NCBI RefSeq assembly: GCF_004803465.1
Contig: NZ_SRSF01000001.1
Coordinates: 682,501-746,500 of the forward strand
Direction of reading: 5' to 3'
DNA length: 64,000 nucleotides
Source: Neolewinella litorea
GTDB lineage: Bacteria; Bacteroidota; Bacteroidia; Chitinophagales; Saprospiraceae
The notes under the pieces are model-generated. The model ran no database searches, was not told the DNA's origin, and was given only the letters and a program-made list of their open reading frames with translations. The translations under genes were made by a program, and so were the position numbers. Positions 21,384 to 26,272 of this stretch are shown piece after piece (within the stretch, counting starts at the first letter, position 1; each line of letters begins with the position of its first letter).

Positions 21384-22289
21384 ATGACCGATTCACCGCC
21401 CCTGATCGTCGTGGCCGGCGCATCTGGCGACCTGGGCGCCCGTATCGCCCGCGAAATTATGAATCGCGGTGGACGCCTCCGGGCCCTCGTGCGACAGAGC
21501 ACTCCCCGATCCAAAACGCGGCCCTTGCGCGACCAGGGTGCCGAGATCCGGGTGACCAATTTTGACGACGTGGTCGAGTTGACCGATGCCTGCCGGGGTG
21601 CAACCTGCGTACTATCTGCCCTGTCGGGACTGGAGGACGTAATCGTGGGGGTACAAACACGCTTGCTGGAAGCGGCGGAGGCAGCTGGCGCACCCCGCTT
21701 CATCCCTTCCGACTTCGCCCTGGACTTTACGCAATTGCCGCGCGGCACCAACCGTAACCTGGATTTTCGCAAGACCTTTCAGGAGCGCCTGGAGCAGTCA
21801 CCGCTCGCCGTGACCTCCATCCTGAACGGGATGTTCGCCGACCTGCTCAACGGGCAGGCCCCTTTCATCGTCGACCGCATTCACCGGGTGCTCTACTATG
21901 GCGACGACCACCAGCAAATGGACTTCACTACAATGGACGATACGGCGCGCTACACCGCCCTGGCCGCGATGGACGCCGACACTCCGCGGTACCTTCGCAT
22001 CGCTGGCGACGTGCTCGACGCCCACGGCCTGGCCAGGGCGGCCGAAGCGGCCCGCGGTGGAAAATACCGTCCGCTGCGGATCGGAGGGATTGGTGTACTG
22101 ACTACCCTCATCGGCGTCACCCGTCTGTTCGTCCCCGGCAGGGACGATACCTACCCCGCCTGGCAGGGCATGCAGTACATGCGCAATATGATGAGCGGGC
22201 GGGGCAAGCTGTCTCCACTCGACAACCATCGTTACCCCGACTTTAAGTGGACGCCGGTTCGGGAAGTGCTCGCCCGTGCCACGGAATAA
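21384..22289 (+). CDS. NmrA-like NAD(P)-binding protein
   Basis: A 301-residue Rossmann-fold protein of the atypical short-chain dehydrogenase group. The dinucleotide loop is GASGDLG at 12-18 (GxxGxxG) after a beta-strand PPLIVVA. A basic loop after the second strand (ALVRQSTPRSKTR) suggests NADP(H) preference. Further along, ATCVLSALSG and RFIPSDFALD match the NmrA/isoflavone-reductase pattern, in which the SDR catalytic tyrosine is often missing. YGDDHQQMDFTTMDDTARYT and YLRIAGD are also typical. Members act as reductases or as redox-sensing regulators; which applies here is not visible. It is divergent from the M1 peptidase gene, with a 196-base gap that holds no clear promoter. Downstream is the repeat array. 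Confidence 0.82.
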   Translation: MTDSPPLIVVAGASGDLGARIAREIMNRGGRLRALVRQSTPRSKTRPLRDQGAEIRVTNFDDVVELTDACRGATCVLSALSGLEDVIVGVQTRLLEAAEAAGAPRFIPSDFALDFTQLPRGTNRNLDFRKTFQERLEQSPLAVTSILNGMFADLLNGQAPFIVDRIHRVLYYGDDHQQMDFTTMDDTARYTALAAMDADTPRYLRIAGDVLDAHGLARAAEAARGGKYRPLRIGGIGVLTTLIGVTRLFVPGRDDTYPAWQGMQYMRNMMSGRGKLSPLDNHRYPDFKWTPVREVLARATE

Positions 22290-22395
22290 AGTGGGACCTA
22301 TGCGCCACGATGGTATCGAGCTCCCAACCACCACCCCGGCAGGTATGGTGGCACTGGCACCCGCGCGTGTCGTCAACATCTTCAGCGGAACGAGA

Positions 22396-22706
22396 GGTAA
22401 GCGGTTGGACGGTACCCCCAGCGTCCAACGGGTAAGCGGTTGGACGGTACCCCAGCGTCCTACGGGTAAGCGGTTGGACGGTCCCCCTAGCGTCTAACGG
22501 GTAAGCGGTTGGACGGTCCCCCTAGCGTCTACGGGTAAGCGGTTGGACGGTCCCCCTAGCGTCCAACGGGTAAGCGGTTGGACGGTCCCCCAGCGTCCAA
22601 CGGGTAAGCGGTTGGACGGTCCCCCCAGCGTCCAACGGGTAAGCGGTTGGACGGTCCCCCCAGCGTCCAACGGGTAAGCGGTTGGACGGTCCCCCAGCGT
22701 CCAACG
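22396..22706 (+). repeat. nine tandem 34-35 bp units, each with an inverted repeat
   Basis: Nine direct units start at 22396, 22431, 22465, 22500, 22534, 22569, 22603, 22638 and 22673, with no spacer between them. Each begins GGTAAGCGGTTGGACGGT, runs through a C-tract of four to six, and ends AGCGTCCAACG or a variant. The arms GTTGGACG and CGTCCAAC form a perfect 8-bp stem around a 10-base loop in six units (1 and 5-9). Units 2-4 have substitutions or a one-base loss in the right arm. Unit length alternates 34/35 mainly through the C count. Units 7 and 8 are identical. The array fills most of the 460-base gap between the convergent NmrA and regulator genes. No credible coding frame crosses it, because length changes break every frame. 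Nothing else is seen in this gap. Confidence 0.95.
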
Positions 22707-22749
22707 GTTACGGAGTCCAAACAACTTTCAGAGCCGCAGCCCCACGGAA

Positions 22750-23070
22750 CTAGTTCTCCATTATTTTCAAAAACTCCTCCAATTCTTCCAGGTGCCGCTC
22801 GAACGCCTCCCGGCCGGCCGGTGTAGCGCGGTAGCTGGTGCGGGGCTTATCGTCTACGAAGCGCTTCTCCGTCTCGATCTGCCCGGCCTTGTGCAATGCC
22901 TTTATGTGCCCGGCCAGGCTGCCGTCACTTAGTTTCAGGGCATTGCGCAGGGTGACAAAATCGACCCAGTCGTTGACCAACAGGATACCCATCAGTCCGA
23001 GACGGGTTCGGTGATTGTACAGCTTGCTGAGGCCCGCTACCGTTGATTTGACCGCTTCGACCTTATTCAT
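22750..23070 (-). CDS. winged-helix transcriptional regulator
   Basis: A 106-residue DNA-binding protein. The start at 23070 (MNKVEAV) overlaps the stop of the membrane-protein gene (ATGAATAA context). An alternative ATG lies two codons upstream at 23076. The fold reads as a single winged helix: RTRLGLMGILLVNDWVDFVT, the recognition region LRNALKLSDGSLAGHIKALH, a wing with ETEKRFVDDKPRTSYRATPA, and a C-terminal dimerisation helix ending HLEELEEFLKIMEN. This matches the PadR/MarR-like 'HTH_34' type. The overlap with a membrane-protein gene is the common arrangement in which such a regulator controls its own membrane partner. That function is inference. The gene ends about 40 bases from the repeat array. 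Confidence 0.82.
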   Translation of the reverse strand: MNKVEAVKSTVAGLSKLYNHRTRLGLMGILLVNDWVDFVTLRNALKLSDGSLAGHIKALHKAGQIETEKRFVDDKPRTSYRATPAGREAFERHLEELEEFLKIMEN

Positions 23071-23847: not shown

Positions 23848-25053
23848 ATGGTCAACTCCTCCGACACCCAGCTCCCCGATGGTGCCGCCGCCCTGCTGGT
23901 GGCCCTGGCCACCCCCTCCCCGCAGGGCGAGATCGGCATTCCGGTGTTGTTGTGGGGCCGTCCCGGGGTGGGAAAGTCGAGTTTTATCGAAGGACTTGCC
24001 ACGCCCGACCTCCGGGTCACGACCCTGATCGCTTCCATTCACGACCCCACCGACTTCAGTGGACTTCCCTTTCTGGAGAACGGCCGGGTAAAGTATGCCA
24101 CGCCGGAATGGGTCGAGGACTTCCGTTCCAGCCCCGCCGGCATTCTGTTCCTCGACGAACTGAGCACGGCTCCGCCGTCTGTCCAGGCGGCCCTGTTGCG
24201 GGTGGTTTTTGAGCGCAAGGTGGGCTTCACCCCCCTCCCCCCGGGCGTACGTATCGTGGCGGCCGCTAACCCTCCAGACCTCATGGTAGGCGGCTGGGAG
24301 CTCTCCCCGCCCCTGCGTAACCGCTTCGTGCACCTGCAGTGGGACATACCCCAATCGCTTTACGTCCGCTCGTTGACTCACGGTTGGGACCGTGGACAGT
24401 TGCCGCACATCGACGCTGCCCGGCACCGTCGATTGCTCCCCGAGTGGAAAATTCGCATCGGCGGCTTCCTGCAGCTGCGGCCCGACGCCCTCCACGGCAA
24501 TCCGGAAGACAACCCCTTCGGATTCGCTAGCCCGCGCAGTTGGGACTTCGCCGCCGCACTTCTGTGCTCGTGCGAACTCCTGGGTTACCGACTCGACGAT
24601 CGCGATGGTTATGGTCAAACGGTAGTGCTCAATCTGGTCGCCGGTTGTCTGGGAGAAGCCACCGCCCTGCAGCTCGTAGAACACCTGAGTAAACTGCGAC
24701 TGCCCGATCCGCGTAAAGTGCTGCACGGCGAGGCTTCCATCACGGTCAGCGAACTGGACGACGCCGAGCTGTTCGTACTTTTTTACGGAATGAACGCACT
24801 ATTGTTGCCTGAATTGGAGTCCGACGAACTACTCGGTCAATCCCGCCGGTACCTGGAATTGGCGCAGGCGGTCTTCGACGATAGTCGACGCGACGTAATC
24901 TTCGTCCACCTCAAGGAACTGGCACGCGCGGGATGGTTGGCCCACCTCACCGCCGGTGGTACCAACGACCCGGAGCTTCAGGAGGTGATGGAACTCATCG
25001 GTACGGTTTTCAGCGATGAGGCCTTCAACGAATTCGTAAATGTCCTCGGGTGA
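23848..25053 (+). CDS. MoxR-type AAA+ ATPase
   Basis: A 401-residue AAA+ protein of the MoxR/AAA_5 type. Walker A is GRPGVGKSSF at about 37-46. GILFLDELS (about 99-107) is Walker B, followed by TAPPSVQAALLRVVFERKVG, the pre-sensor helix typical of MoxR ATPases. VRIVAAANPPDLMVGGWEL is the sensor 1 strand with the asparagine, and LSPPLRNRFVHLQWDIP holds the arginine-finger region. The C-terminal 190 residues are helical, include the lid and end in a less conserved part. MoxR ATPases usually remodel or load metal centres together with a VWA-domain partner. Such a partner follows here and overlaps the end of this gene by 14 bases. Its operon promoter was not identified. Confidence 0.9.
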   Translation: MVNSSDTQLPDGAAALLVALATPSPQGEIGIPVLLWGRPGVGKSSFIEGLATPDLRVTTLIASIHDPTDFSGLPFLENGRVKYATPEWVEDFRSSPAGILFLDELSTAPPSVQAALLRVVFERKVGFTPLPPGVRIVAAANPPDLMVGGWELSPPLRNRFVHLQWDIPQSLYVRSLTHGWDRGQLPHIDAARHRRLLPEWKIRIGGFLQLRPDALHGNPEDNPFGFASPRSWDFAAALLCSCELLGYRLDDRDGYGQTVVLNLVAGCLGEATALQLVEHLSKLRLPDPRKVLHGEASITVSELDDAELFVLFYGMNALLLPELESDELLGQSRRYLELAQAVFDDSRRDVIFVHLKELARAGWLAHLTAGGTNDPELQEVMELIGTVFSDEAFNEFVNVLG

Positions 25054-26272
25054 CCGGCAGCAAACGGCCGAGCGGATCCGTTTCGCCCGGGCCTACGCCG
25101 CCGAGCACCTGCCCTGGTTCGCTCCGGCACTTTTCCGGTGCCGCATCGTACTGTCTGAGGCCGTGCGCGTTGCCGCCGTAGACCGGCACTACAACGTGTA
25201 CTGGAACCCAGACGTCGTGAACAAGCTGTACAGCGACCCTGATCGTTCCCATGCCCTGAGTGAGCTGGCGTTCCTTTGGGTGCACGAGATCAGTCACCGA
25301 CTGCGACAGCACGGTGAGCGGGCGGAGGCCACTGGGGTAAGGGGCCAGGCGGCCAGTCGTCGCTGGAACGTAGCCTGTGATCTGGAGATCAACGATTCCG
25401 AATGGAAGGGCCTCCGTATGCCGAAGGCCTATCCCGGTCACCACGCGCGTGCTCTAGGGTGGCCGGAGGGAGAATTGGCAGAAACCTACTACCGGCGACT
25501 CACGGAAGAGGCCGCCCCCCCGCCTGATATTCCCGACGAGGGCAGCGGAGTACACGGGCAGGCCCGCCCGTGGGAGGACGGAGACCATCAGCGAATGACC
25601 CCGCTGGACGAGGAAATTTTGCGCCGCGAAGTGGCCCGCCTGACGCGCGAAGCCGCGGACCAGACAGTGCCGGTAAGCTGGCGGGAGTGGGCCGCCGACG
25701 TGCTCCGCAGCGGCGTCAACTGGCAGCAACGCCTGGGGCACCGATTGAGCATTGCCCTCCAACGTGGCCGCGGCATGCGAACGGATTACGCCTTTGGGCG
25801 ACCCAATCGACGGCAGTCCGTCTACCACCCCGTGCTTCCACCCAGTCTTTCCGGCGCGCGTACCGCCAGCGTAGCAATCGTGGTCGACACCTCGGCCTCC
25901 ATGAAAGGCGCTGACTTACAGCGTGCGTTAGCCGAGGTGGCCGCCATCATTCGGCAACTGGAAGCGCCGGTGACCATCATTCCCTGCGACCTGCGCGCCC
26001 ACGAGCCAGTACGCATCGTGTCGGAGCGAGAGGCCTTCCAGGTCAGCCACCTTCCTGGCGGCGGCGGTACCGATATGCGGGCGGGCCTGAGCGCAGCCTT
26101 GGACCTCCAACCCCAGCCCGATTCCGTTCTGGTGATTACCGACGGCATGACGGCTTACCCGGAGAAGCCCTACCGCCTCCCCCTTATTTTCGCCATCCTC
26201 GGCCGCAGCGAGGACAAGCGGCTCCCCCCCCAGCCACCCTTTCGGCCGGACCAGGTGGTGGAAATCCGTTAG
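25040..26272 (+). CDS. putative metallopeptidase-like / VWA-like domain protein (DUF2201 type)
   Basis: A 410-residue protein with two recognisable parts. The N-terminal half resembles the putative metallopeptidase domain found before VWA-like domains: LAFLWVHEISHRLRQHGERA carries HEISH at 82-86, and RRWNVACDLEINDSEW follows. The C-terminal half (from about residue 275) is VWA-like: VAIVVDTSASM gives the metal-site DxSxS at 283-287, and LPGGGGTDMRAGL supplies the threonine and VLVITDGMTAYP the late aspartate. These match the DUF2201 family. The gene overlaps the MoxR ATPase gene by 14 bases, so the products are very likely partners. By analogy with other MoxR-VWA pairs the ATPase would act on a target bound by the VWA protein. 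Whether the HExxH site is active is unknown. Confidence 0.85.
   Translation: MSSGDRQQTAERIRFARAYAAEHLPWFAPALFRCRIVLSEAVRVAAVDRHYNVYWNPDVVNKLYSDPDRSHALSELAFLWVHEISHRLRQHGERAEATGVRGQAASRRWNVACDLEINDSEWKGLRMPKAYPGHHARALGWPEGELAETYYRRLTEEAAPPPDIPDEGSGVHGQARPWEDGDHQRMTPLDEEILRREVARLTREAADQTVPVSWREWAADVLRSGVNWQQRLGHRLSIALQRGRGMRTDYAFGRPNRRQSVYHPVLPPSLSGARTASVAIVVDTSASMKGADLQRALAEVAAIIRQLEAPVTIIPCDLRAHEPVRIVSEREAFQVSHLPGGGGTDMRAGLSAALDLQPQPDSVLVITDGMTAYPEKPYRLPLIFAILGRSEDKRLPPQPPFRPDQVVEIR

Follow-up and report, generated by a model that had tools for sequence, protein, structure and literature searches.

The Repeat Array and Its Flanking Genes

The window, which is the whole stretch of 64,000 nucleotides that was analyzed, belongs to a genome (G000) of 4.40 Mb in 39 contigs. 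It carries a tandem array of hairpin-forming units between the 3′ ends of two convergent genes, as an earlier note on this DNA had stated; one gene is NmrA-like (plus strand) and the other is for an HTH_34 regulator (minus strand). The features of the locus are listed below.

21384..22289, plus strand: gene of an NmrA-like NAD(P)-binding protein (Pfam PF05368, 3e-17), the upstream convergent gene
22290..22395, no strand: spacer of 106 bp from the NmrA stop to the array (sequence search)
22396..22706, plus strand: nine-unit tandem array, very probably of REP type (TRF, unit table and covariance-model matches)
22396-22430, 22431-22464, 22465-22499, 22500-22533, 22534-22568, plus strand: array units 1-5 (unit table)
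22569-22602, 22603-22637, 22638-22672, 22673-22706, plus strand: array units 6-9 (unit table)
22403..22430, plus strand: hairpin of unit 1, with arm GGTTGGACGGT, loop ACCCCC and arm AGCGTCCAACG (unit table)
22707..22749, no strand: spacer of 43 bp from the array to the HTH_34 stop (sequence reading)
22750..23070, minus strand: gene of a winged-helix HTH_34 regulator (Pfam PF13601, 8e-28), the downstream convergent gene

The array spans 311 bp and consists of nine abutting units, with coordinates (22396-22706) that were exact by both TRF and unit reading. At a score threshold of 50, TRF reported a single array in the window (22396-22707), with a period of 35 (9.0 copies, 93% matches) and also a period of 69. 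The units measure 35, 34, 35, 34, 35, 34, 35, 35 and 34 bp in order, the last ending at 22706, so the nine tandem units of 34-35 bp described in the earlier note were confirmed. A CRISPR array, which that note had also denied, was ruled out because the repeats abut with no unique spacers between them. No match up to E 5 was obtained with Rfam across 22200-22800.

The hairpin layout of unit 1 recurs in every unit, with a defective 3′ arm in units 2, 3 and 4, and the consensus unit folds at -13.2 kcal/mol (z -1.48 against shuffles). When one mismatch at most was allowed, the arm CCGTTGGACGG had 15 matches within the array and a single further one in the rest of the window, against a mean of 2.7 and a maximum of 10 in 100 shuffles. 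Copies 1-2 carry a GGTACC variant and copies 3-5 a CCTAG variant, and arm defects were found in copy 3 (CGTCTAAC) and copy 4 (CGTCTACG), all as previously described; the damaged 3′ arm of copy 2 (CGTCCTACG) had been missed. Unit length varies in the C run and in the 3′ arm. The shared variants make a stepwise duplication of the units plausible. The further proposal of a recent expansion at the right side was borne out in part: units 7 and 8 are identical, as are units 6 and 9, but units that lie farther apart in the array were not more different from each other (r=0.05, permutation p=0.37).

A Dispersed Palindrome Family

The search of the unit in this genome and in relatives that the earlier note had proposed revealed a dispersed family, which is also present in congeners. 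BLAST of the unit against its own genome gave 32 matches, five of them inside the array. The dispersed hairpins have the form CGTTGGACGGT-N6-ACCGTCCAACG, with a loop that is mostly C6 or G6, and additional single arms lie about 4-9 bases from them in either orientation. Sixteen hairpins were aligned, two of them taken from the array and 14 from 13 dispersed places, and a covariance model was built from them. In the own genome the model recovered the 13 places and the array, and among the 150 of 2776 first-look candidates that were scored no full hairpin was found beyond its source places. As in a REPtron, the palindromic copies are dispersed and mostly intergenic, at 13 or more other places. 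The exact arm CGTTGGACGGT was counted 37 times outside the array, against two for the reversed pattern; both 13 and 37 are lower bounds. The array itself is without this exact arm.

A GT[AG]G tag within 8 bases 5′ of the arm was found at 0 of 15 arms in the array, 12 of 54 at the dispersed loci of the same genome, 7 of 111 in the relative G004 and 0 of 49 in the relative G017. With no GT[AG]G at the hairpin foot (0/15 arms), the array differs from canonical GTAG-tagged REPs. Nor does the family reach the usual REP abundance of more than 100 per genome (PMC2817692), with at least 13 places and at least 37 exact arms in the own genome. Many palindrome families comprise 20-100 units or fewer (PMC3733652).

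A second REP-like family was also observed in the own genome (GTCGGACNACTTA, 11 exact copies, on contigs C12, C23, C36, C37 and C38). It matches the REP of the relative G016, and it was absent from those RAYT flanks of this genome that were read, a part of the total.

A Candidate RAYT Gene Between Inverted Repeat Copies

Reading between two repeat sites led to the detection of a candidate RAYT gene.

C1:1170913-1171548 of the own genome, strand not given: candidate RAYT gene (ORF of 211 aa), with inverted repeat copies on both sides

Two of the 13 dispersed places face each other, inverted, across this ORF, which is the arrangement of a REPtron, a RAYT gene between two inverted repeat copies. 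The ORF matched NCBIfam NF047646 (REP_Tyr_transpos) with E=2e-10 and 40.5 bits against a curated cut-off of 80 bits. With Pfam Y1_Tnp it gave no significant match (E 0.14); this search passed over it and returned five other genes, including an IS200-like one. A PDB sequence search gave one match (E 0.25), which was taken for chance.

In an alignment of 16 sequences (the own protein and 15 relatives), the HUH histidines (HxH), YxHxNP and WxxSS were invariant, the own motifs being DHFH and YIHDNP. Modelled with AlphaFold from 32 sequences, a 53%-identical homologue (Lewinellaceae bacterium SD302) reached a pLDDT of 90.9, whereas a single-sequence model of the own protein gave a pLDDT of 38.5 and no usable fold. 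The best PDB match of the SD302 model was 4ER8, a RAYT with a REP hairpin (E=9e-7, TM 0.55/0.62, 12% identity), followed by IS200/IS605 transposases. The HUH motif, the catalytic Tyr and the Y1 fold, the last as predicted from the 53% homologue, are those of a RAYT/TnpA_REP. A pairwise dN/dS was defined in 1 of 15 pairs (0.19), with silent sites saturated in the others; pN was 0.22-0.31 and pS 0.70-0.94.

Two other genes of this kind were observed in the same genome. A second, distant RAYT-like gene (34% identical) lies near position 464549 of contig C23 (L257, 463300-466300), with a palindrome of its own, GGCAGACGTCGGACGTCTGCC, on both sides. Another lies on contig C36 (L049, 118000-123000), where the long ORFs around it translate into repetitive sequence in several frames, suggesting a closely packed tract of some other repeat.

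The RAYT Locus and Its Repeats in Relatives

RAYT homologues (E up to 1e-5) were found in 32 of 60 genomes and matches of the repeat model in 7 of 60, the own genome being included in both counts. The repeat matches were many in G000, G004 and G017, and G012 had four of them at two places; the marginal matches in G001, G046 and G058, one in each, were left out of the family. The matches in G004, G017 and G012 bore out the structured repeat in relatives that the earlier note had looked to. A related hairpin of G012 (L085, 1510-1570) has an A/T-rich loop and AGCGTCC arms, and two further arms come after it at intervals of 18 bp.

The RAYT gene lies between vWA and hemD at 7 of 12 loci tested (G000, G004, G007, G012, G016, G017 and G020), and these neighbours were not seen at the other five. 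The palindromes that flank it mostly differ among these seven members of the genus, though G000 and G004 have the arm in common. Counts of three exact k-mers, each taken from a RAYT flank, were made for 12 genomes of our choice. The own k-mer CGTTGGACGGT occurred 37 times in G000, 84 in G004 and 16 in G017 (reversed control 0-7), 1-6 times in five other RAYT-bearing genomes and 0 times in four without a RAYT match. The k-mer from the G020 flank was counted 30 times in G020 and 0-2 times elsewhere (reversed control 3-9 per genome), and that from the G016 flank 52 times in G016, 11 in G000 and 0-3 elsewhere (reversed control 0-6). By these counts the k-mers stand out chiefly in genomes with a matching flank, and the sequence of the repeat follows the RAYT from genome to genome. 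There are exceptions to this pairing, since G000 holds 11 copies of the G016 type and G017 holds 16 exact arms of the own type, though the palindromes beside the RAYT of G017 are a variant.

Sixty-one loci with RAYT homologues were compared (52 hand-picked from 80 homologues and 9 from relatives). An inverted match of at least 14 nt between the two flanks was found at 24 of them, against 1 of 61 when flanks were swapped. Direct flank matches were as common as inverted ones (25/61), as is expected of palindromes.

Tandem arrays of the family were found elsewhere as well, namely 35 bp × 2.5 in the own genome, 35 bp × 2.9 in G017, and 18-bp arrays of the same arm in G004 (× 17.7, 10.7, 9.8 and 6.2). 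The three longest of the latter (L254, L255 and L256) have linkers that are GGGTGGC or GTCTGAC-like. Tandem clusters also lie beside the RAYT gene itself, with 17 bp × 4.7 in G004 and × 3.6 in G017.

The Intergenic Site and Host Function

In G017 and G004 the NmrA gene, the HTH_34 gene and the next membrane-protein gene follow in the same order, with HTH_34 proteins 85 and 83% identical, respectively, to that of the window. In both, the NmrA and HTH_34 genes are convergent and array-free, with gaps of 6 and 13 bp. These are the only two of eight other NmrA loci with an HTH_34 neighbour within 1.5 kb, the remaining six being uninformative on the array. Because the orthologous gene pairs stand 6 and 13 bp apart without an array, about 450 bp would have been gained in the lineage of the window or lost in that of G017 and G004, a gain being simpler. 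Some 149 bp of the gap between the two genes is non-REP. No other full copy of the 106-bp spacer was found in the own genome and five relatives, the best partial match being 33 bases in G016 (E 4e-4).

On the far side of the HTH_34 pair, at 23848-26272 of the window, an AAA_5 (MoxR-like) ATPase gene is followed by an ORF of 410 aa that appears vWA-like by eye.

The suggestion that the array acts as a bidirectional terminator did not hold for an intrinsic terminator. No such site (a hairpin followed by a T run) was found inside the array, and its RNA fold was no stronger than that of shuffles (z = 0.01). The sole terminator-like site, at 22729-22744 on the minus strand, is weak, lies outside the array and occurs at shuffle frequency (1 vs 0.7). 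As DNA, the array folds better than shuffles (z -3.89, 0/100), an excess that inverted repeats give anyway. The alternative suggestion of a protein-binding or recombination role pointed in the right direction, since the same repeat flanks the gene of a predicted REP-type HUH transposase.

Sixty repeat clusters from three genomes were placed relative to genes in fetched loci, with a rough gene caller that missed the RAYT itself. Thirteen lay in convergent, 33 in co-directional and 10 in divergent gaps and 4 inside called genes; hence 56 of 60 were outside called genes by this caller, a few of them overlapping a gene edge. This placement resembles that published for REPs, in which co-directional and convergent gaps predominate (PMC3733652). 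We regard the array as most likely a REP cluster that is tolerated at two gene 3′ ends, any host role being hypothetical.

Comparison with Known Systems

TnpA_REP subclass 2.6 is mostly from Bacteroidetes and has atypical flanking palindromes without GT[AG]G (PMC6006769). The present system resembles the REPtrons of this subclass in its HUH enzyme with Y-I-H-x-N-P, its tag-less flanking palindromes, its copies elsewhere in the genome and its host phylum, Bacteroidota. The subclass table gives NH[LIV]H and YIH[QN]NP, against DHFH and YIHDNP here, and the passages of PMC6006769 on subclass 2.6 describe no arrays of 9-18 abutting units such as those found here. As compared by motif and flank features, the array fits subclass 2.6; the fit covers the array (tag at 0/15 arms), while the own dispersed loci carry the tag at 12 of 54 arms.

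Intergenic palindromes, inverted copies around a RAYT and tandem clusters are shared with the REP/BIME and REPIN clusters of E. coli and Pseudomonas (PMC2817692, PMC3116915), such as the 16 ordered REPIN clusters of SBW25, the largest of which holds four REPINs plus a REP (PMC3116915). Unlike these, the own hairpins have linkers of only about 6-9 bases, the copy number is low and the array is tag-less. The GTAG and CGTC superfamilies are also small palindromes near gene 3′ ends, with CGTC families in Bacteroidetes among other phyla, but the CGTC superfamily as described in PMC3733652 has an unpaired tag and no associated transposase, whereas here CGTC forms part of the paired arm and a RAYT gene lies between copies of the family. 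BrickBuilt of Porphyromonas gingivalis, also of the Bacteroidota, is a minisatellite of spacerless tandem 23-nt repeats that is dispersed and intergenic (PMC4596501); it is a MITE with leader and tail ends, and the abstract and outline of PMC4596501 give no link to a RAYT. The array is thus most likely a new Bacteroidota case of a known type of tiny mobile element and no new system.

Origin of the Array

We consider it highly probable that the array is a REP cluster of a lineage-specific family, with the RAYT at C1:1170913-1171548 as its predicted cognate enzyme. One REP would have entered the convergent gap between NmrA and HTH_34, probably by RAYT cutting and joining of a single-stranded hairpin, and would then have grown locally into nine units through slippage, unequal recombination at the hairpins or RAYT rejoining. 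Cutting and joining of single-stranded REPs is known for other RAYTs (PMC8266576) and is assumed for this one by analogy. Several findings stand against this explanation: the candidate RAYT is under the NF047646 cut-off, the good structure model is that of a homologue, the copy number is low, the array is without GT[AG]G, about 149 bp of the intergenic DNA is not REP, and the covariance model revealed no full hairpin in the own genome beyond its source places.

A neutral minisatellite, grown by slippage of a chance palindrome and with no tie to a mobile element, would explain the length variation in the C run and 3′ arm, and local amplification is in any case a likely contributor. The dispersal of the family, which has copies at no fewer than 13 other places, flanks a RAYT gene on either side and occurs in congeners, contradicts the minisatellite as a complete explanation, and we regard it as extremely improbable. 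An array kept by selection, as a two-sided transcription barrier, a protector of mRNA 3′ ends or a binding array of the gyrase/IHF type, with its REP origin incidental, would suit a site between two gene 3′ ends; E. coli BIMEs are bound by gyrase and IHF (PMC2817692), and 13 of the 60 clusters are convergent (the others being 33 co-directional, 10 divergent and 4 intragenic by the rough gene caller). The missing terminator-like signal, the RNA fold at shuffle level, the arm defects in three of nine units and the array-free sites of two relatives make it improbable.

Within the REP explanation itself, the array may have grown by repeated RAYT-mediated insertion of adjacent single REPs instead of local duplication. 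Tandem clusters do recur, even beside the RAYT of G004 (17 bp × 4.7) and G017 (× 3.6). Every one of the nine units carries AGCGTC in its 3′ arm, a sequence absent from the 14 other aligned hairpins; this favours a single founder. Neighbouring units also have loop variants in common, and insertions from the dispersed pool should rather have introduced the common form. The single-founder argument is weakened because the array-type base also occurs in a lone-arm cluster of the own genome (L054, GTTGGACGCT) and in the G012 copies (AGCGTCCAAC), and the former makes more than one donor possible. On balance, repeated insertion seems rather unlikely, and we favour local expansion of one entered REP.

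A previously unexplained minisatellite is thereby tied to the RAYT/REP system of a lineage that is Lewinella-like by its nearest named RAYT; in an open-licence text library no REP work on this group was found. More speculatively, and as a doubtful proposal, the RAYT of this genus may keep a single chromosomal location while the REPs that belong to it are replaced from lineage to lineage and are prone to form arrays in which 9-18 arms or hairpins nearly abut, perhaps made by the RAYT itself through strand rejoining on a hairpin ladder and possibly serving as a store of RAYT sites or as a decoy. The RAYT locus shared by seven genomes, where the flanking repeats mostly differ, is a natural series that can test joint change of RAYT and REP, and the growth of REP arrays can be tested at the array site, which is occupied in one genome and empty in two others.

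A further tandem repeat with a palindromic core was seen about 1.2 kb from a REP site (L006, 2778-2968), with 6.9 copies of a 26-bp unit, GCTGCCTCAGGCAGCGCCAGCACAAT.
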